Of a DNA stretch of 23,053 nt, positions 2,282-20,105 are shown one piece after another. The first letter of the stretch is position 1. Every line of letters starts with the position of its first letter. The notes under the pieces are model-generated. The model was not told where the DNA came from. It searched no databases and saw only the letters and a program-made list of their open reading frames with translations. The stretch is taken from positions 1-23,053 of the IMG/VR virus record IMGVR_UViG_3300042691_001688; one strand, given 5' to 3'. Made by a program: the position numbers and the translations under genes. Origin of the DNA: a virus.

Positions 2282-2936
2282 CATTAGCGTTTGGCAATAT
2301 CAGAATATTGTAAAAACCCTTGCAAATAAAGAGGACGAAATAGAAAAGTCCTATAAACTTATAGGCATTGTTTACAATATGACTGAAAACCAAGTCGATA
2401 GCTTAACGCAAGCGGAATATAAGGCAAAGCTAAATGAATTGGATTTTTTAAATACGATGCCAGAAGGAAAGCCCATAAAAGTTTTAAAGGTAAACGGCAA
2501 AAGATACCGACTTATTTATGATGTTACAAGGATGCCATTCGGGAGGTACGTAGAAAGCAAAGCATTCGTCGGGGATATATACGGGAACCTGCATAAATTA
2601 GGGGCTACAATGGTAATGCCACAAAAAAGGAATTGGCTTGGATTATGGGTTGATGATAAATACGACGCATCAATGCACGAAGATTATGCAGAAGATATTT
2701 TACAAGCTAATTTCCAAGACGTTTATTTTTCGCTGGTTTTTTTTTATCAAGTATTCAGAAATTGGATCGAGGTTACAAGGGATTATTTGGTAGCCAAGAT
2801 GATGATGACAGGGCAGACGAAAGCCCAATGCAGCCAAGTGGTAACAGATTTATGCAGTATTTTGGATGGCATTATTCAGCCAAACTTATTGCCGACCACG
2901 AAAATATCAGAGTTGAGCAAGTTTACAACAGATTAA
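2268..2936 (+). CDS. Putative tail assembly chaperone (zero-frame product)
   Basis: A 222-residue protein that I read as the short chaperone that coats the tape measure before tail-tube assembly (the role of lambda gpG). It opens with ISVWQYQNIVKTL, has a compact alpha/beta middle (VNGKRYRLIYDVTRMPFGRYVE) and a helical part with FQDVYFSLVFFYQVFRNW. The strongest evidence is the ORF arrangement: at 2738-2744 the zero-frame codons read T TTT TTT, a perfect slippery heptamer, at a point where the -1 frame is open to 3013. Dual-frame chaperones of this kind are near-universal in long-tailed phages. They usually lie directly before the tape measure gene, but here four kilobases of tail genes intervene. 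The zero-frame tail after the slip site is 63 residues, longer than usual. Confidence 0.6.
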   Translation: MKWNNISVWQYQNIVKTLANKEDEIEKSYKLIGIVYNMTENQVDSLTQAEYKAKLNELDFLNTMPEGKPIKVLKVNGKRYRLIYDVTRMPFGRYVESKAFVGDIYGNLHKLGATMVMPQKRNWLGLWVDDKYDASMHEDYAEDILQANFQDVYFSLVFFYQVFRNWIEVTRDYLVAKMMMTGQTKAQCSQVVTDLCSILDGIIQPNLLPTTKISELSKFTTD

Positions 2937-3013
2937 CAATAGAGGCTTTAAATACATTGTCTTATTTAAAAGCAAAGGCGGATTACGATCGGGAATTACA
3001 TAGGCAATTATAG
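2711..3013 (+). CDS. Tail assembly chaperone -1 frameshift extension (GT-like C-terminal part)
   Basis: This is the -1 frame segment, open from 2711 (after a TAA at 2708-2710) to the stop at 3011-3013. If ribosomes slip on T TTT TTT at 2738-2744, the product has residues 1-159 of the 2268 gene fused to 89 new residues, 248 in all. The new part has an acidic linker (SQDDDDRADES) and then a globular helical domain (MQYFGWHYSAKLIADHE, then NTLSYLKAKADYD). This looks like real protein, not an out-of-frame shadow. The T-domain of such fusions normally binds the tail tube protein. Independent initiation, for example at the TTG at 2762 or an internal ATG (MQPSGNRFMQ), is the alternative. Confidence 0.6.
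   Translation, partial: FPRRLFFAGFFLSSIQKLDRGYKGLFGSQDDDDRADESPMQPSGNRFMQYFGWHYSAKLIADHENIRVEQVYNRLTIEALNTLSYLKAKADYDRELHRQL
2738..2744 (+). other. Programmed -1 ribosomal frameshift site (T TTT TTT)
   Basis: Nine consecutive T occur at 2737-2745. In the zero frame they are split GTT TTT TTT TAT, giving the canonical X XXY YYZ heptamer with X=Y=Z=T at 2738-2744. The -1 frame is blocked at 2708-2710 and stays open to 3013, so slippage here joins two coding segments. No obvious strong downstream pseudoknot was found by eye. Confidence 0.6.
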
Positions 3014-3024
3014 TTTTGTGGTTT

Positions 3025-3052
3025 ACCCCTGCCGATATGGTGGGGGTTTTTT
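3025..3052 (+). terminator. Rho-independent terminator after tail chaperone gene
   Basis: ACCCCTGCC (3025-3033) pairs with GGTGGGGGT (3039-3047) in a 9-bp stem (two wobbles) with a 5-nt GATAT loop, followed by a run of T to 3052. No clear promoter is seen between it and the ATG at 3089, so it may be partial and lower expression of the tail genes that follow. Confidence 0.8.
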
Positions 3053-3088: not shown

Positions 3089-3760
3089 ATGAGTATTAGT
3101 CAAGCACAGGCAAAAGCGATAGCAGACGGATTTTTAGCCACATTAGGGCAACAAAAGACTACGACACCTGATATGCCCGTAATTGAAGCAATGCTTCTAA
3201 AATATGGCGCAGAGTTCCAGCAACAGGCTATCGATAATTTGAATAAAAATAATTCGATTGCTTCGGGTAATATAGAGAATAACTTAGCTTTTGAGGTTAC
3301 TCAATTTGGCAAGACTTATACCTTGACAATGGGTTATCCTAAAAATACCCCTGCATCTAAGTATTGGGATTTTGTGAATCAGGGCGTAAAGGGAACTAAA
3401 AACATAAAGGCAGATGTTAAAACGCCATACGCTTTTAAGAGCAATAAAAAAGCTATTCCGATTTCAGTAGTCGAAGGATTTTTAAAATATAGCAAGAAAA
3501 AAGCAGTACAAATTAAAAAATATACTAAGCTGGGCGTAGAACTGAAAGCAACAGAAGGGACGAAAAGTTTAAAATATGCAATAGCAAGAAAAATACATAG
3601 GGACGGATTAAGATCTACGAGGTATTTTGACAACGCAAGGGATAGCGTATTTGGCAATGAGTTCCAAAAGGTTATGAATGCAGCATTAGGATTTGACGTT
3701 GAAATAAAAATTACACAAATAGCAAACGAAATAAAAGATGGCAATAACAATACAAAGTAG
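3089..3760 (+). CDS. Putative neck / tail-completion protein (HK97 gp10-like)
   Basis: A 223-residue protein. The N-terminal 75 residues are helical and Gln/Asn-rich. The C-terminal half (about 150-210) has the pattern LKYAIARKIHRDGLRSTRYFDNA and then a helix and a short beta strand (GFDVEIKIT). That arrangement resembles HK97 gp10-like minor tail or neck proteins, which have an 'R...PFFRPA...' element before the final helix. Such proteins join the head connector to the tail. It follows the terminator at 3025-3052, and its 3' end overlaps the next gene by 23 nt. The call rests on pattern and context. Confidence 0.45.
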   Translation: MSISQAQAKAIADGFLATLGQQKTTTPDMPVIEAMLLKYGAEFQQQAIDNLNKNNSIASGNIENNLAFEVTQFGKTYTLTMGYPKNTPASKYWDFVNQGVKGTKNIKADVKTPYAFKSNKKAIPISVVEGFLKYSKKKAVQIKKYTKLGVELKATEGTKSLKYAIARKIHRDGLRSTRYFDNARDSVFGNEFQKVMNAALGFDVEIKITQIANEIKDGNNNTK

Positions 3761-4964: not shown

Positions 4965-6991
4965 TGATTAGTACCGAAATATACATAGAAGATTATAGAC
5001 TTGATTTAGTTCAAGATATTAGTACAGAGTTTACATATACGATTGATGATATTACTGACTTTGGCAGTAAAAACACAAATTATAGTAAAACAATATCCAT
5101 AACGGGTACGGCTACAAACAATAAAATATTTGGCTTTATTTTTGATTTAGGAAATGCGAATGATACGGACGATAATTTACCAAATGTTAACTACAATTTC
5201 AATGCTTCGAAACAAGCTAATTGTAAAATATTTATTGATAAAATCCAAATATTTAAAGGAACTTTAAGGATATTGGAAATAGTAATTGATGATAAAACTA
5301 TTGAATATCAATGTTCTGTGTTTGGGGAATTGGGCGGTTTTATGACTGCATTAGGAAACAAAAGATTAACAGACTTAGATTTTAGCGAATACGATCACGT
5401 TTATAATGTAGCTAATATTAAAGCAAGTTGGGATAGCGTTGCAGGATCAGGATATTTTTACCCATTGATTGATTACGGAAATGTAAGCACGGACAAAGTA
5501 AACTTTCAAGTAACGGCATACCGCCCGGCTTTATATGTAGCTGAATATTTAGAAAAGATATTTGCGGGAACCGATTATTCTTATACGTTAGATTTATTAG
5601 CAGGGGATCAAGAACTATTTAATAGGCTTATAATTCCGCATAATCAAAAGAGTTTAACCAAGACTACAAGCAATTTTCCGGTAGCTACAAGGACAACAGA
5701 CTTCGAAATTACAGGAACAAGTCTTTATAGATTTACAACAGTTACAGGATCGGGATTAGTTGCAAGTTCATCAAATAGCGTATTTACTTACGTAGGCGCA
5801 ACTTCTATAAACTTAAAAATGATTTATTCATTTTCAGGGGACGCAACAAGCGGTAATTTTTATATATTAAAAAATGGCGCAAGCGTTTATTCAGAAAGTT
5901 TTTCAGGTGGAGTTGGCGTCGGTGGTGAGTTTGAATTATTAATTGTAACAAACGATGCAATTAGTTTTAGGTTTACCAATACGGCACCTAATAGAGACGA
6001 TCCACCTATCACAATAACAGAGGGCGAAGTTTCTTTTTTCTCGGATTCTTTTGTGCCGGTAAACGTAGCGTATGGGGATGCATTATTTGTTAATGATACA
6101 ATTCCAAAAGGTATTTTTCAAAGAGACTTCTTTTTAAGCATTACAAAAATGTTTAATTTGTACGTCTATGAAGATACTTGGGACGATAAAAAGATATTGA
6201 TAAAACCATTTATTAACTTTTATCCAGAAACAAGTGCAACGGCATTGGATTGGTCTAACAAAATAGATAGGGCTAAACCTTTGAGCATCAAGCCAATGAG
6301 TGAATTAAACGCAAGATATTTTCATTATAAGTTCAAAGAGGATAACGATTTTTACAATGAAAACTACAATAAAAAATATCAAGAAAGCTACGGGGATAGG
6401 ATCTATGATACTAATTATGATTTTAGCAAAGAAACAGAAAGTTTAAGCGTAATATTTGCGCCAAGTGTTTTATACCAAAAGACCGGAACGGATAAAATAT
6501 ATCCTGCTATTTATAAGGTATCAGATAACAATACTAAAGAGAATTCAATGGATTGTGTTATCAGGATAATGCAAGCTAAAAAGATAACAGGCAGAACAAG
6601 TTATAATATTTTAAATAGTTTATCAGTGCTTGATAGTGTTACAACCTATGGATATGGGGGGCATTTAGACAATCCATTTACGCCTACGAATGATATTAAT
6701 TTCGGGGTGCCATTTGAAATACAATTTAATATCAATACATATCCTACGACTAATGTTTTTAATGCGTATCATAGCGAATATATAGCGGAAATAACAAGTA
6801 AAGATTCAAAGCTATTAACTTGTTCGGCTTTATTAGATACAGTTGACATTATGAATTTAGACTTTAGTCAGTTTTATTGGATTGACGGGGTATTATTTAG
6901 GCTTAATAAAGTAGACGGGTTTAACCCAATGGAATACAAGACAACAAAAATTAGTTTATTAAAGGTTATTGAAACAAAATATTTTTTATAA
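4964..6991 (+). CDS. Putative baseplate / tail-associated structural protein
   Basis: A 675-residue protein with no membrane segment, rich in Asn, Asp, Tyr and Phe. The first 110 residues contain a distinctive element: DITDFGSKNTNYSKTISITG, then NNKIFGFIFDLGN, then FNASKQANCKIFIDKIQIFKG. I know this arrangement from tail proteins of Bacteroidetes phages and prophages, where it probably forms a beta-rich baseplate or tail-hub domain. The middle has a Ser/Gly-rich jelly-roll-like region (about 240-365). It is joined on both sides by TAATG overlaps to the 3738 gene and to the tape measure gene, so it is part of the tail block. The exact place in the tail is inferred. Confidence 0.5.
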   Translation: MISTEIYIEDYRLDLVQDISTEFTYTIDDITDFGSKNTNYSKTISITGTATNNKIFGFIFDLGNANDTDDNLPNVNYNFNASKQANCKIFIDKIQIFKGTLRILEIVIDDKTIEYQCSVFGELGGFMTALGNKRLTDLDFSEYDHVYNVANIKASWDSVAGSGYFYPLIDYGNVSTDKVNFQVTAYRPALYVAEYLEKIFAGTDYSYTLDLLAGDQELFNRLIIPHNQKSLTKTTSNFPVATRTTDFEITGTSLYRFTTVTGSGLVASSSNSVFTYVGATSINLKMIYSFSGDATSGNFYILKNGASVYSESFSGGVGVGGEFELLIVTNDAISFRFTNTAPNRDDPPITITEGEVSFFSDSFVPVNVAYGDALFVNDTIPKGIFQRDFFLSITKMFNLYVYEDTWDDKKILIKPFINFYPETSATALDWSNKIDRAKPLSIKPMSELNARYFHYKFKEDNDFYNENYNKKYQESYGDRIYDTNYDFSKETESLSVIFAPSVLYQKTGTDKIYPAIYKVSDNNTKENSMDCVIRIMQAKKITGRTSYNILNSLSVLDSVTTYGYGGHLDNPFTPTNDINFGVPFEIQFNINTYPTTNVFNAYHSEYIAEITSKDSKLLTCSALLDTVDIMNLDFSQFYWIDGVLFRLNKVDGFNPMEYKTTKISLLKVIETKYFL

Positions 6992-8796
6992 TGGCACAAA
7001 ATTTAGATCTTAATATAAATGTAAATACCGATCAAGCGGATAGGTCAGTCGGAACACTTAAAAAACAATTAAGGGAAGCGCAGGCAGAAGTAGTCGCGTT
7101 ATCTGAAAAGTTTGGTGCTACATCAAAGGAAGCTATTGAGGCGGCAAAAAGAGCAGCAGTATTAAGGGACAGGATTGGTGATGCAAAAGCATTGGTTGAC
7201 GCATTTAATCCAGATGCTAAGTTTAAGGCATTAACCGCTTCACTATCAGGGGTTGCAGGTGGCTTTGGCGCAGTTCAAGGTGCAATGGTTTTATTCGGAA
7301 AGGAATCGGAAGACGTACAAAAAACTTTATTAAAGGTTCAGTCTGCTATGGCAATTTCGCAAGGATTGCAAGCGGTCGGCGAAAGTATTGATTCATTTAA
7401 GCAATTAGGCGCGGTAATTAAAACACAGGTTGTAAGTGCATTTAGTACATTAAGAGGTGCAATTATAGCAACGGGAGTAGGTGCATTAGCAATTGGAGTA
7501 GGTTTATTGATAGCTAACTTTGAGAAAGTAAAAGAAACTTTAATTAATTTATTTCCAGGCTTAGTTGAGTTTGGCAATAAAATTAAAAATATAGTACAAG
7601 GAATTACTGATTTTATAGGAGTTACAAGCGAAGCAGCAAGAGCGCAAGATGAATTAAAATTCGCTTTAGAAACTTCTAATAAGGCAATAGATAATCAAAT
7701 TAAGATTTTAGAAGCGCAAGGTGGCAAAGAAAATGAAATATATGAGCAAAAGAAAATAAGAATTAGCAATCAAATTAAGTTAGTAAAAGGTTCAACGCAA
7801 GAGGAATTACAAGCCAGAGCTAATTTAAATACAGAGTTGCAAGTATTGGAATTAAACGAAGCTAATAGAATTAAAAAAGCAAATGAAGCTGCGGCTAAAG
7901 AGAGAAAAGATGCAGCAGATAAAAGAGCAGCAGATGAAAAGGAAAGGCTTGAGAAAGCTAAAGCAGATGCTAAGGCTTACGAGGAGTTTGATACTCAACT
8001 GCAACAAAGGTTAATGGAAATTGACGAGGAGAAGGCAAAGAAAAAAAAGGAATTAGATTTCCAAAATATGCAGAATTTAATTACAGATTTAGATTATAAA
8101 AATGAACTATTAGATTTTGATTTTGAAGACGACCAACAAAGACTTGCAAATAAGGAAGCATATATAGCAGAACAAAAAGCAATAGAATTATCTAACTTAG
8201 AACTTACTGAACAAGAAAGGTTAGAAATTATTGCTAAGTATGCAAAGCAAGAACAAGATATTGATAAGGATATTACTGCAAGTAAAAAAGCAGAGAAGGA
8301 TGCACAAACTGCAATGCAATTACAATATATTGGGTTTGCAGAACAAGCGGGTAATTTATTGGGACAAATTGCAGGCAAGAATAAGACAGTAGCAATAGCT
8401 GGGTTATTAATCGAAAAGGGTGCTGCCATTGCTAAGATTATTACACAAATGAATAGCATCCCACCAATATTGCCGCCAAGTATTCCAAACCCTGCATATA
8501 TACCAGCAAGAATAGCAGGTGCATTATCAATCGCTTCTGTTATTGCGGCATCCGCACAAGGTATCCAGCAAATTAATTCAGCGGGAAATGGTGGCACAGG
8601 ATCAAGTTCTGCACCTTCAATTTCAACGCAAGCACCAATGATTCCGCAATTACCACAAGCACAGACTACAAATATAAGCAGACAATCAATTAATGATTTA
8701 GGAAATCAAGCAGTCAGGGCATACGTAATTGAAACAGACGTAACAGGTAACCAACAAAGAATGGCAGCTATAAGACAAAGAGCAAGATTTAGTTAA
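6991..8796 (+). CDS. Tape measure protein
   Basis: A 601-residue protein with the layout of a siphovirus tape measure. Residues 1-75 are a charged coiled coil (LKKQLREAQAEVVALSEKFG). Residues about 80-180 are Gly/Ala-rich with a hydrophobic segment at 157-176 (AIIATGVGALAIGVGLLIAN). Residues about 215-445 are a Lys/Glu/Ala-rich helix with heptads. Residues about 460-535 are a second hydrophobic Ala/Ile/Gly part, followed by a Ser/Gln-rich tail. Tape measure length sets tail length, and 600 residues in an extended helix would span roughly 90 nm. The start is fixed by a TAATG overlap. The usual chaperone neighbour is 4 kb upstream, not adjacent. Confidence 0.8.
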   Translation: MAQNLDLNINVNTDQADRSVGTLKKQLREAQAEVVALSEKFGATSKEAIEAAKRAAVLRDRIGDAKALVDAFNPDAKFKALTASLSGVAGGFGAVQGAMVLFGKESEDVQKTLLKVQSAMAISQGLQAVGESIDSFKQLGAVIKTQVVSAFSTLRGAIIATGVGALAIGVGLLIANFEKVKETLINLFPGLVEFGNKIKNIVQGITDFIGVTSEAARAQDELKFALETSNKAIDNQIKILEAQGGKENEIYEQKKIRISNQIKLVKGSTQEELQARANLNTELQVLELNEANRIKKANEAAAKERKDAADKRAADEKERLEKAKADAKAYEEFDTQLQQRLMEIDEEKAKKKKELDFQNMQNLITDLDYKNELLDFDFEDDQQRLANKEAYIAEQKAIELSNLELTEQERLEIIAKYAKQEQDIDKDITASKKAEKDAQTAMQLQYIGFAEQAGNLLGQIAGKNKTVAIAGLLIEKGAAIAKIITQMNSIPPILPPSIPNPAYIPARIAGALSIASVIAASAQGIQQINSAGNGGTGSSSAPSISTQAPMIPQLPQAQTTNISRQSINDLGNQAVRAYVIETDVTGNQQRMAAIRQRARFS

Positions 8797-10081: not shown

Positions 10082-11035
10082 ATGGGATTTGACGTATCAA
10101 CATTAGCCGCTTATACAGAGCAAAACGAAGCCTTATTGGTAACTGATTCTGTATTAGGTGCAAAGACTGCAGCCTTAATTAAGAGTGCAGGTAACGTGAT
10201 GGTAGGCGTAAAGAGCGCTGAAACTATCAACAATATGGACACAGACGCGATTTTCCAAGCAGGTGGATCTTGCGGATTTACTGCATCTGGTTCTACAACT
10301 TTTACTCAAAGAACAGTAACAGTTGGTAAAATTAAAGTAAACGAATCATTATGTCCTAAAGACTTAGAATCTAAGTACTTACAAAAGGCATTACCAACAG
10401 GATCAATGTATGATTCTATTCCTTTCGAGCAAGAATTTGCTAATAAGAAAGCAAAAACAATCGCTGAGCAATTAGAAGTTTCTTTATGGCAAGGTGATAC
10501 TACAAGCGTTAACGTAAACTTGAATAAGTTTGACGGCTTAGTAAAATTAATCGGTGCTGCTTCTGGAGTTGTAGCTGCTAACGCTTCTACTTACATTTCA
10601 GGTGCGCCTTTAAGTTCTATTACTGCTGCGAATGTAATCAGCATTTTTGATGGCGTATATCAAGCAATCCCTGCGAAAGTAGTAGCTGCTGATGATATGA
10701 CTATTTTCTGCGGTCAAGATTTATTCCGTACTTACACAATCGCGCTTAAAAATAGCGGTTCATTCTTTTACCAAATTGACGTAAAAGCTGATAGCGAGTT
10801 CGTATTACCAGGTACTATGATTAAAGTTGTAGCACTTGCAGGCTTGAACGGAACTAACAAGGTTTACGCAATGCGTTTATCTAACTTGTTCTTAGGAACA
10901 GATTTGTTGAACGAAGAGGAGAAGTTTGAAATTTTCTACGCAAAAGAAGCTGATCAAGTTCGTTTTGTAAGTGAGTTCAAAATGGGTGTAAACGTAGCGT
11001 TCCCTGACGAGATCGTTAAGTTTATCTTAGCATAA
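10082..11035 (+). CDS. Major capsid protein (HK97-fold, inferred)
   Basis: A 317-residue protein with the size and position of a major capsid protein, directly after protease and scaffold. It has a helical N-terminus, a beta-rich central part with SCGFTASGSTTFTQRTVTVG, and a long P-domain-like segment with IFDGVYQAIPAKVVAADDMT followed by GQDLFRTYTIALKNSGSFF. That last pattern is frequent in capsid proteins of Bacteroidetes siphoviruses. Codon use is richer in C-ending and GGT/GCT codons than in its neighbours, as expected for a highly expressed gene. A strong terminator follows the stop by a few bases. The fold assignment is by family and context. Confidence 0.85.
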   Translation: MGFDVSTLAAYTEQNEALLVTDSVLGAKTAALIKSAGNVMVGVKSAETINNMDTDAIFQAGGSCGFTASGSTTFTQRTVTVGKIKVNESLCPKDLESKYLQKALPTGSMYDSIPFEQEFANKKAKTIAEQLEVSLWQGDTTSVNVNLNKFDGLVKLIGAASGVVAANASTYISGAPLSSITAANVISIFDGVYQAIPAKVVAADDMTIFCGQDLFRTYTIALKNSGSFFYQIDVKADSEFVLPGTMIKVVALAGLNGTNKVYAMRLSNLFLGTDLLNEEEKFEIFYAKEADQVRFVSEFKMGVNVAFPDEIVKFILA

Positions 11036-11039
11036 TTAT

Positions 11040-11066
11040 AAGGGGGTGAAATATCCCCCTTTTTTA
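11040..11066 (+). terminator. Rho-independent terminator after major capsid gene
   Basis: AAGGGGG (11040-11046) pairs with CCCCCTT (11055-11061) in a 7-bp stem with an 8-nt loop, followed by T to 11065. It lies five bases after the capsid stop codon and probably sets the capsid transcript level relative to downstream genes. Confidence 0.85.
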
Positions 11067-11087
11067 AAAATATTAAATTAATTTACA

Positions 11088-11606
11088 ATGGCTTGTGCAT
11101 TAACATCAGGATACACTTTAGATTGCCGCGATAGTTTAGGCGGTGTTACGGAAGTGTATTTTATAGAAGCAGCAAACGTAACTGCGACAACCGAAGCAAG
11201 CGGAGTAATTACTACATTAACAAAAGCAACAGGTAAAAGATTCTACAAATACGAGCAAGTGAAGGATACATCAATGATGAATCAAACAATCACTACAAAC
11301 GTACAAAATGGAACTGTATTCTATGCTCAAGAGTTAATGGTAGTCTTGAATAAATTACAAACTGCTACAAGAAACGAAATTTTATTACTTGCACAGAATA
11401 CTTTGATTGCAGTAGTAAAAGATTCAAACGGCAATTATTGGTATCTTGGTAAAACAAGAGGATTGGATTTAACTGCTGGTACTGCTGGCACGGGTACTGC
11501 TCAAGGTGACAGAAGCGGATTTGCTTTAACCTTTACAGGATCGGAAGCTGCATTAGCACCAAGCGTTGCACAAGCGGTTTATTCTGTCTTGACAACTGCT
11601 GGATAA
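11088..11606 (+). CDS. Major structural protein, tail tube candidate
   Basis: A 172-residue protein rich in Thr, Ala and Gly. The first part (MACALTSGYTLDCRDSLGGV) and the later NGNYWYLGKTRGLDL and GTGTAQGDRSGFALTF are a conserved layout that I recognise from Bacteroidetes phage genomes, where this gene lies next to the capsid gene. The beta-rich sequence, size and its own flanking terminators suggest an abundant virion protein, most likely the tail tube subunit; a head decoration protein is the alternative. No upstream promoter is evident, so transcription probably reads through the hairpin at 11040-11066. Confidence 0.5.
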   Translation: MACALTSGYTLDCRDSLGGVTEVYFIEAANVTATTEASGVITTLTKATGKRFYKYEQVKDTSMMNQTITTNVQNGTVFYAQELMVVLNKLQTATRNEILLLAQNTLIAVVKDSNGNYWYLGKTRGLDLTAGTAGTGTAQGDRSGFALTFTGSEAALAPSVAQAVYSVLTTAG

Positions 11607-11630
11607 GTTTTTTCATAGGTTTATAGGTTT

Positions 11631-11665
11631 GCCGCCGTTCCTTCATTGGTTCGGCGGTTTTTTAT
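11631..11665 (+). terminator. Rho-independent terminator after putative tail tube gene
   Basis: CCGCCG (11632-11637) pairs with CGGCGG (11652-11657), with a 14-nt loop that has a small inner CC/GG pairing, followed by TTTTTT. Together with the terminator at 11040-11066 it isolates the 11088-11606 gene between two hairpins. Confidence 0.82.
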
Positions 11666-11684
11666 TAAGGCATATGCAACAAAT

Positions 11685-11698
11685 TAGCTTTTTAGCTA
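11685..11698 (+). promoter_or_regulatory. Small inverted repeat upstream of 11708 gene
   Basis: TAGCT and AGCTA flank TTTT, giving a 5-bp hairpin nine bases before the ATG. It could be an operator half-site pair or an RNA stem affecting initiation, but it is short enough to be chance. Confidence 0.2.
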
Positions 11699-11707
11699 TA
11701 TAGTTAT

Positions 11708-12082
11708 ATGATTAGGTTAACAAAGGGACAAACCCAAAGCATTATTTTAACATTAACTGAAAAGCAGTTGCTAACAAATCCTAACTATCTTTTTGTATTT
11801 ACAAATAGAAGTGCCAATACAGAAGTAAAGTTTATTCAATTAAACAATACAGACGTAAGTCAATATAAGGACAGATACAATGAATTTAGTATCGTTACAA
11901 ATACTAACTTTGCTACTGCTTTGAATGGTCAATATGATTACGATATATATGAACAGGCAAGCACGTCTAATCTTAACCCTGCTGGTTTAAATTTATTAGA
12001 ATCAGGGATAATGGAATTAGTCGGAACGCCTTTCAATTTCACGGAATATACTACAACGGACACTTATAAAATAAGACAATAA
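11708..12082 (+). CDS. Conserved structural-module protein of unknown function
   Basis: A 124-residue protein with beta-rich sequence and no membrane segment. Its pattern (YLFVFTNRSAN, then YKDRYNEFSIV, then GQYDYDIYEQAS and NLLESGIMELVG) is one I associate with Bacteroidetes phage structural modules, between capsid and portal genes. The order of short strands suggests an immunoglobulin-like or jelly-roll domain. It ends in a TAATG overlap with the portal gene, so it is probably translated together with it. It could be a head decoration or a connector part; there is no catalytic motif. Confidence 0.55.
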   Translation: MIRLTKGQTQSIILTLTEKQLLTNPNYLFVFTNRSANTEVKFIQLNNTDVSQYKDRYNEFSIVTNTNFATALNGQYDYDIYEQASTSNLNPAGLNLLESGIMELVGTPFNFTEYTTTDTYKIRQ

Positions 12083-13881
12083 TGGATTTAAGAGTACTAA
12101 CATTTGCAGAAGCCAAGCAGCCTGAATTTAAAGAAAAGAAAGGCGAAGGATATATTCAGTATGGCGATCGCAACGATTACCCGAATTACTTAGTTGAACT
12201 TTTTAACAAGTCAGCAAAGCATAACGCTATCATAAAAAGCAAGGTTCACTACATTACTGCAAATGGTTGGTCAGGAAGCGAGCAAGCAAAGCCTTTTATT
12301 GACAAAGTTAATAGAATGGAAAGCCTTGAGGATCTAACAAGGAAGGTATCTTTGGATGCCGAGTTATTTGGAGGTTATTATTTGGAAATTATATTTTCAG
12401 TAACAGGTCAATTAAGCGAAATTTGGCATTGTGATTATACAAAGATTCGTACTAATAAAGACAATACACAATTTTGGTATAAAGAGGATTGGGCTGATAG
12501 GGCAGAAAAGGCAGAGGTTTACCCCGCTTTCAACCCTACTAATCCATACGGCAAGCAAATCCTTTACATAAAAGAATACCGCCCAAATATGGGTTACTAT
12601 TCATTGCCGGGTTACTTTGGTGCGCTTAATTACATTGAATCAGATATTGAAATATCTAAGCACGTATTAGGCAATGCACAGACAGGATTCAGCGCAAGTA
12701 AATTAATTACTTTGCCAAATGGCGAGCCTTCGGACGATGAAAAGCGTAACATTGAAAAACGTTTCACAAATAGATTTAGCGGATCAGACGGCAAGAAGTT
12801 TATTTTAGCTTTCGTAAATGATAGCGCAAGAAAGCCTATCGTTGATGATTTAGGAACTTCAGATATTACAAAAGAGGACTTTGGGCGCGTGGATTCTTTG
12901 ATTCAAACTAATATCTTTTCAGGGCATCAGATTACAACGCCATCTATTTTTGGTATTGCAGAGGCGGGTAAATTAGGCAGCCGTTCGGAAATGCGCGACG
13001 GGTACGAAATATTTAAAAATACTTACGTTAATAGTAAGCAGATGCACCTTGAAAGTGTATTCAATATGTTATTTAAGTACAGAGGTATTGAGGACGCGGA
13101 ATTACATATTATCCCAACGGAGCCGATCGGGTTTGAGTTCACAGAAAACCTTTTAAAGGAAATTGCACCTAAAGAATGGTTGCTTGAAAAGGCGGGAATC
13201 GATATGACTAAATACCAAGCCCCAGAGGAACCGGTTACAGTTGTCCAATCTGCGCAATTTAAGGACGATTTTAGCGTGTTCTTTGAATTTGGCGAGGACA
13301 AGGGTAATTATAATATTTGGAAGTCTAAAACGCGCTTTAATGACGATTCCGAATATCAGCTATTTGCAGAGGTAAACCAATTACAGGCTAATGTATTAGA
13401 TTTAATGGCAAAGGATAAAAGAATAACGCCTCAAGTCTTAGCTACAACCTTAGATCAAAGCGTGGATACTATCAATCAAGTGATTAAAACATTGATTGAT
13501 AACGGGCATATCCAACCCAACCAATACACAATAGGTACAGGCATTGACGAAAATGTAATTACGGAGCATACATTGACCGAGCCATTGAAGGATATTTTAG
13601 AAAAGATTAAACCACAGACAACGGAATTGATGATTAGATATTCCTATGAATGGAAAGCGGGATTTAGTCAATCGGATATTGATACAAGCCGTCCTTTTTG
13701 TGTGGCTTTATTAGAAGCAAACAAGGTTTATAGCCGTTCCGAAATAGAGTTAATGAGTGCAAGATTAGGGTATTCGGTATGGGATCGTAAAGGCGGTTGG
13801 TACACAAAGCCGGGAACAAATGATCACGAACCAAGTTGCAGGCATCAATGGGTTTCAAACATAGTAACAAGAAAAAAATAA
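12082..13881 (+). CDS. Portal protein with winged-helix-like insertion and MuF-like C-terminus
   Basis: A 599-residue protein. Residues 1-380 follow the portal pattern: GDRNDYPNYLVELFNKSAKH near the start, IKSKVHYITANGW, SLDAELFGGYYLEI, IWHCDYTKIR, the stem/clip helix region with LGNAQTGFSASKL, and FGRVDSLIQTNIFSGHQIT then GSRSEMRDGYEIF. Two extra parts follow. Residues about 425-485 look like a winged helix (ANVLDLMAKDKRITPQVLA, then TINQVIKTLIDNGHIQ). Residues about 520-595 (DTSRPFCVALLEANKVYSR, WDRKGGW, SCRHQW) resemble the Cys/His end of MuF-type head morphogenesis proteins. Portals form the dodecameric DNA entry ring. It lies about 11 kb from terL, an unusual position. Both TAATG junctions support the limits. 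Confidence 0.82.
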   Translation: MDLRVLTFAEAKQPEFKEKKGEGYIQYGDRNDYPNYLVELFNKSAKHNAIIKSKVHYITANGWSGSEQAKPFIDKVNRMESLEDLTRKVSLDAELFGGYYLEIIFSVTGQLSEIWHCDYTKIRTNKDNTQFWYKEDWADRAEKAEVYPAFNPTNPYGKQILYIKEYRPNMGYYSLPGYFGALNYIESDIEISKHVLGNAQTGFSASKLITLPNGEPSDDEKRNIEKRFTNRFSGSDGKKFILAFVNDSARKPIVDDLGTSDITKEDFGRVDSLIQTNIFSGHQITTPSIFGIAEAGKLGSRSEMRDGYEIFKNTYVNSKQMHLESVFNMLFKYRGIEDAELHIIPTEPIGFEFTENLLKEIAPKEWLLEKAGIDMTKYQAPEEPVTVVQSAQFKDDFSVFFEFGEDKGNYNIWKSKTRFNDDSEYQLFAEVNQLQANVLDLMAKDKRITPQVLATTLDQSVDTINQVIKTLIDNGHIQPNQYTIGTGIDENVITEHTLTEPLKDILEKIKPQTTELMIRYSYEWKAGFSQSDIDTSRPFCVALLEANKVYSRSEIELMSARLGYSVWDRKGGWYTKPGTNDHEPSCRHQWVSNIVTRKK

Positions 13882-19640: not shown

Positions 19641-20105
19641 ATGAAACTATCAGAACATTTAGATCTTAGCGAAATTATAAGAAGCGAAAGCGCAAAACGT
19701 AATGGGTTATCAAATATGCCTATCGAATCGCATATTGCTAATTTGAAACTATTAGCTGAAAATATATTCCAGCCTATCAGGAATAACTTTCGTTGCCCGA
19801 TTCATATTTCAAGCGGGTACAGATCCATTGAATTAAATAGGGTAATCAAAGGTAGTTTAACTTCGCAGCATTGCACAGGCGAAGCTATTGATATTGATAT
19901 GGACGGATCGCCTAACGGAGTTACTAACAAAATGGTATTTAATTTTATAAAAGATAACTTGGAATTTGACCAGCTTATATGGGAATTTGGAACGAATGAG
20001 AATCCGGATTGGGTTCACGTTTCATACGAAAGCACAGGGAAGCAAAGAAAACAAGTATTAAAAGCAATAAGAACAAACGGATCGACACAATATAAAACCT
20101 ATTAA
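19641..20105 (+). CDS. Endolysin, peptidase M15A-type zinc peptidase
   Basis: A 154-residue cytoplasmic protein, probably an L-alanoyl-D-glutamate or D-Ala-D-Ala-type peptidase that cuts peptidoglycan stem peptides. The zinc site is complete: H77 and D84 in SQHCTGEAIDID, and H126 in DWVHVS with D123 as likely catalytic acid; SSGYRS at 57-62 is the usual upstream element. There is no signal peptide, so export should depend on a holin. The full length is normal for a single-domain M15 lysin without a separate cell-wall-binding domain. The gene is tightly packed with the holin candidate. Confidence 0.88.
   Translation: MKLSEHLDLSEIIRSESAKRNGLSNMPIESHIANLKLLAENIFQPIRNNFRCPIHISSGYRSIELNRVIKGSLTSQHCTGEAIDIDMDGSPNGVTNKMVFNFIKDNLEFDQLIWEFGTNENPDWVHVSYESTGKQRKQVLKAIRTNGSTQYKTY

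Follow-up and report, generated by a model that had tools for sequence, protein, structure and literature searches.

Can one phage gene end in two different long tails, and does a run of nine T's (T9) join the second of them to the shared start? The question is raised by the gene that follows the terminase in the window, i.e. the whole stretch of 23,053 bases (35.5% GC) that we analyzed, in which this T9 is the sole run of at least nine T's on either strand. An earlier reading, made from the sequence only, had noted an in-phase T TTT TTT within the run and a -1 frame open from 2711 to 3013, and had proposed that about 200 bases, including a zero-frame tail of 63 residues, are read in two frames. 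The in-phase site and the overlapping open -1 frame are confirmed: the codons at the site are GTT (2736) TTT TTT TAT, so that the heptamer T_TTT_TTT is in phase with the zero frame, and the -1 frame extends from behind a TAA at 2708-2710 to a TAG at 3011-3013. The doubly read part comes to about 190 nt (2745-2936), and both of its frames are constrained among relatives. The elements of the gene are as follows.

2268-2936, + strand: zero-frame open reading frame of 222 amino acids, the predicted G-like product (shared N-terminal part plus zero-frame tail); homologues in more than 80 contigs and, remotely, gp38 of Nonlabens phage.
2268-2736, + strand: N-terminal part common to both predicted products; selection in the zero frame only.
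2737-2745, + strand: T9 run with in-phase T_TTT_TTT (2738-2744), the predicted -1 slip site; of 269 distinct sequences, 266 have T9 and 3 have T10.
2745-2936, + strand: zero-frame tail of 63 codons plus stop, doubly read (about 190 nt); open for 52-88 codons in nearly all relatives, with -1-synonymous changes suppressed.
2744-3013, + strand: -1 frame tail of 89 codons plus stop, which would give the frameshift product its T-like C-terminal domain; invariant residues begin at the slip site, and past the zero-frame stop selection is on the -1 frame only.

We think it probable, with moderate confidence, that this is a G/GT-type tail-assembly chaperone gene of a Bacteroidota siphovirus-like phage, in which ribosomes slip by -1 at T_TTT_TTT and about 190 bases are dual-coding. 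Most ribosomes would read 2268-2936 straight through, producing the 222-residue G-like protein, and a minority would slip back one base at the heptamer and end in the -1 frame at 3013, producing a GT-like fusion of about 248 residues that shares its first ~159 residues with the short form and ends in a different, helical C-terminus. If lambda is a guide, the tape measure would be bound by the shared part and tail-tube subunits recruited by the -1 tail. We infer that slippage occurs, at what level and by which agent; the site, both tails, selection in both frames and the gene order come out of the comparisons that follow.

Since several other in-phase heptamers in the window also enter open -1 frames, the heptamer by itself is weak evidence, and it is the conservation across relatives that raises the T9 site above chance. 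The first close relatives, obtained by protein-level searches of IMG/VR, all carry G-T9-A at the same codons, and a degenerate pattern with free third codon positions (FFYQV[FY]-x-NW) recovered T9 in 79 of 79 readable loci. Using gp38 of Nonlabens phage P12024S as a query yielded 63 distant relatives, with the slip site in all of them. In a separate search relatives were chosen by profiles and peptide patterns lying solely upstream of the site, so that their selection was independent of it; T9 or T10 was present in 77 of 77 contigs with the site sequenced, one deletion (contig L413) aside. A pooled set collected by upstream profiles comprised 273 distinct homologous ORFs, namely 266 with T9, three with T10, three fragments at contig edges, for which T9 was visible in other searches, and L413. 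In the latter an internal deletion within 2489-3025 takes out the slip site together with the neighbouring stretch of each frame, which is either a real loss or an assembly join.

Altogether T9 or T10 is found in phase at the same codons in 269 of 269 distinct sequences, in family members down to ~25-30% identity. In profile comparison the near and far groups matched both in their zero-frame products (probability 98.2, E 6e-14) and in their -1 tails (probability 93.8, E 2e-7), and their slips fell at the same place. A relative with a disrupted T run and both ORFs intact had been named in advance as grounds for abandoning the frameshift, and there was none among the 269, all of which keep T9 or T10. 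At least ~580 IMG/VR contigs make up the group, a large family of aquatic Bacteroidota phages.

The nucleotides of the slip site are kept beyond the demand of both proteins. The eighth T closes a Phe codon in the zero frame and opens a Leu codon (TTA/TTG) in the -1 frame, and its change to C is silent in both frames, save in a few sequences with another fourth codon. This T stays T in all 269 sequences (57-101 lineages) and the doubly silent C was never found; for comparison, TTT makes up 1454 of 1984 upstream Phe codons (73-77%). With lineages taken as independent, the chance of such invariance lies between ~6e-8 (57 lineages at 75%) and 5e-12 (101 lineages at 90%), indicating selection on the run as such. 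Less can be learned from the first and ninth T's: the middle T of codon 1 follows from its always encoding V, L, I or F, and codon 4 begins with a base that is also the middle one of a -1 Leu/Phe codon.

Both products could also arise if RNA polymerase slipped on T9, some mRNAs carrying two U's more or one U less (+2 U or -1 U) and being translated normally into the -1 frame. The frame change does coincide with a homopolymer of at least nine, always T9 or T10, as in programmed transcriptional slippage; seven T's would do for the ribosomal heptamer, yet no run has fewer than nine, and the run remains a pure homopolymer over deep divergence. Homopolymers of nine A or T are reported to make bacterial polymerases slip, and E. 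coli ribosomes shift less readily on U_UUU_UUU than on A_AAA_AAG (PMC5009743). A stimulatory RNA structure after T9 was considered and rejected, as no stem-loop or pseudoknot is conserved downstream and z-scores scatter around zero over 30 relatives. As downstream RNA structure is not seen, polymerase slippage is a serious rival, which we hold to be possible while leaning against it. The two T's beyond the heptamer can be explained by the amino acids at codon 1 and by the -1 Leu/Phe codon at codon 4, and a one-U insertion would also yield a wasteful third-frame product. Ribosomal slippage is our preferred reading because the chaperone frameshifts so far studied are described in that way. A more tentative proposal is that T9 acts at RNA polymerase, or at both machines, in a widespread Bacteroidota chaperone family, where two selected, partly overlapping C-terminal domains might compete at the tape measure instead of one domain being simply added. 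Since T9 is invariant and RNA structure is not seen, ribosome and RNA polymerase can be told apart by direct tests, for which the cultured phage P12024S is available.

That the frameshift would serve a tail-assembly chaperone, as the sequence-only reading had proposed, is a claim of two parts. The frameshift architecture is supported by the relatives, and short and extended forms on a shared N-terminus, produced by a predicted -1 frameshift, are seen by comparison. The chaperone name rests on architecture and position, and no profile or structure match bears it out. Sequence and fold searches of both products against Pfam, PHROG and PDB gave no named chaperone or other assignment, the fold match to a named chaperone being weak (E 0.46 over 59 columns), and hhalign against lambda gpG and gpT showed no similarity (probability below 1%). 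G and T proteins are hypervariable. Our literature searches found no paper on the T9 slip site. The gp10 of Flavobacterium phage 6H, whose fold matched weakly (E 9e-4), was rejected as a relative since it has no comparable slip site or -1 tail.

The position of the gene is seen from its neighbours.

2-754, + strand: C-terminal part of the terminase large subunit (TerL), the upstream neighbour; the chaperone candidate comes after it family-wide.
3089-3760, + strand: tail-completion or neck-type protein, homologue of Nonlabens phage gp42, which matches phrog_5 (tail completion or Neck1) with E 4e-4.
6991-8796, + strand: tape-measure candidate of 601 amino acids, matching Nonlabens gp49 (E 8e-5), which itself matches phrog_58 tape measure (E 2e-4).

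The order TerL, T9 gene, tail-completion protein, two further genes and tape-measure candidate is found in near relatives and in a Chitinophagaceae-binned contig (L188), and is kept in outline from TerL to tape measure in P12024S. Chaperone genes usually, if not by strict definition, lie between the major tail protein and the tape measure and adjoin the latter, whereas the T9 gene is separated from the tape measure, which starts at 6991, by about 4 kb and three genes. The sequence-only reading had called this gap unusual; the gap is real, but it is conserved in the family and is therefore a trait of the lineage, not an oddity of the window contig.

The odd location beside the terminase and the absence of homology to named chaperones would also suit a frameshifted structural or assembly protein other than a tail-assembly chaperone. 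We consider this improbable, as the size of the gene and its short-plus-extended design with a helical extension match G/GT, and so does its location, ahead of the tape measure in the head-tail module; no second conserved cassette of this kind was seen near the tape measure. At 6982-6991, with three codons to go before its stop, the gene preceding the tape measure has an in-phase T_TTT_TTA; the -1 frame there is the tape-measure ORF, open for 604 codons, which possibly reflects a fusion or just an overlapping start. A similar arrangement is found at the end of the portal gene (13872-13881), where an in-phase A_AAA_AAA stands three codons before the stop and the next gene lies in the -1 frame, open for 201 codons. 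The portal protein (12082-13881) is extended at its C-terminus by a long segment, and a winged-helix-like match there (HTH_24, E 5e-4) falls short of the curated cut-off. A capsid candidate, a small tail-tube-like protein (11088-11606, phrog_19091, unknown) and the portal all lie downstream of the tape measure at 10082-13881, an order that is unusual for a siphovirus-like module.

Comparing codon-level selection in both frames across relatives had been suggested as a check, and we sorted substitutions by their effect on both frames in two clades of 20 (clade 1) and 41 (clade 2) sequences, with rates calculated pairwise and shared ancestry not fully corrected. Upstream of the site the zero frame alone is constrained (dNN/dSN 0.17-0.18) and -1 constraint is absent, and past the zero-frame stop the constraint is on the -1 frame only. 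The zero-synonymous rate is 0.128 in the overlap versus 0.470 upstream in clade 1 and 0.139 versus 0.535 in clade 2, and the -1-synonymous rate is 0.105 in the overlap versus 0.423 downstream and 0.180 versus 0.492, respectively. Changes that are silent in either frame are thus 2.7- to 4-fold rarer in the overlap than in the single-frame flanks (bootstrap P <0.001 for each drop, equality being reached in no replicate). Conservation of one tail only had been named beforehand as evidence against the frameshift, and here both tails are kept and both frames of the overlap are constrained. These substitution patterns point to purifying selection on each tail and, within the overlap, on both frames.

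The two frames hand over within the overlap, the zero frame being more constrained in the first ~30 codons and the -1 frame in the rest, where the direct zero-frame dNN/dSN is about 1 or above. It is conceivable that recoding is real and the -1 tail alone matters, the long zero-frame tail being a tolerated by-product, as that distal ratio and the 16-25 codons that suffice in two Nonlabens-type lineages would suggest. We regard this as quite unlikely. The zero frame is strongly constrained over its first 30 codons, and in the distal overlap, where its case relies on continued openness and on a lowered -1-synonymous rate, that rate is 0.095 versus 0.423 (P 0.0015) in clade 1 and 0.206 versus 0.492 (P 0.007) in clade 2. 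The frame is open for 52-88 codons in nearly all relatives (mostly about 160-260 nt from slip to stop), and such openness is rarely expected by chance given the -1 protein alone (P between 0.003 and 0.037 for single sequences, and no higher than 0.001 in a third clade, which served in this test only, since its upstream regions were compared ungapped and indels have probably inflated their rates, NN 0.27). In an unrooted tree of 49 lineages, zero-frame tails of 55-85 codons occur in both deep branches and tails of 16-25 codons only in the Nonlabens pair, suggesting that the long tail is probably ancestral and was lost once. Mean slip-to-stop distances in chaperones are 26 nt (SEA-PHAGES) and 36 nt (phages of Xu et al.) (PMC10885494). 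Predictors favouring such short distances would overlook the T9 family, which offers a large natural data set on how long stretches downstream of a frameshift site are read in two frames.

Conservation of the -1 tail begins with the first residue past the slip (FFLSS.QKLDR or FFLSFR.RL); an AlphaFold model of this tail alone was poor (pLDDT 52). Two plain overlapping genes without recoding, with the -1 ORF translated from its own internal start, would agree with GenBank, where gp39 of P12024S begins at an ATG near the gp38 stop, and with the ATG found inside the -1 frame in clades 1 and 2. Nevertheless, initiation of this kind leaves the invariant T9 and the conservation from the slip site itself unexplained, and it was rejected as very improbable because eight lineages (L314, L322, L327, L329, L331, L333, L344 and L269) have no ATG, GTG or TTG between the slip and the conserved core. 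As for a homopolymer sequencing or assembly error splitting one continuous gene, nine-T runs are error-prone in some chemistries, but the run recurs in 269 distinct sequences, taken from many metagenomes and from isolate genomes, and both frames of the overlap are under selection, which already refutes such an error and leaves it a negligible probability.

Among known systems, transcriptional slippage on runs of nine A or T is described, for example, for dnaX of Thermus and for type III genes of Shigella (PMC5009743). The T9 gene is like them in having an invariant homopolymer of at least nine and no RNA structure. We know of no phage tail chaperone among such genes. In lambda G/GT, as predicted for the T9 gene, a short N-terminal product is accompanied by a minority -1 fusion that is extended at its C-terminus, and the tape measure is encoded further downstream. 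In contrast to the T9 gene, from which the tape measure is separated by three genes, lambda G and T lie directly between the major tail protein V and the tape measure H, and the T frame is entered near the end of G, whereas ~63 zero-frame codons remain here past a slip site that is T9; sequence homology between the two is not detectable. The E/E+E' pair of P2 is likewise a -1 frameshift chaperone pair within the tail module, but its slip is annotated at 19685 and the E stop at 19705, leaving ~20 nt as opposed to ~190 nt of dual coding, and the tape measure follows immediately. Unlike in lambda or P2, the ordinary product of the T9 gene would keep a long C-terminal tail of its own.

Counterparts also exist in gp38-gp39 (PHROGs 32199 and 38404) of Nonlabens phages P12024S and P12024L, remote homologues of both halves that have T9 in the same codons, the same place after the terminase and the same neighbours. 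In P12024S, which we reached by a structure-based lead, gp38 directly follows the terminase and reads ATA CTT TTT TTT TAT CAT at the site, with the -1 frame leading into gp39. Their zero-frame tail, however, is only 25 codons long, and the halves are annotated as two separate hypothetical proteins; the annotated start of gp39 omits the conserved first part of the -1 tail. Measured against these systems, the variant seen here is a large chaperone-like family, so far unnamed, whose T9 is invariant and whose dual coding is unusually long. By the same homologies PHROGs 32199 and 38404, both of unknown function, are the two halves of one gene with a predicted frameshift, and thus phrog_32199 and phrog_38404 gain a putative name and mechanism.
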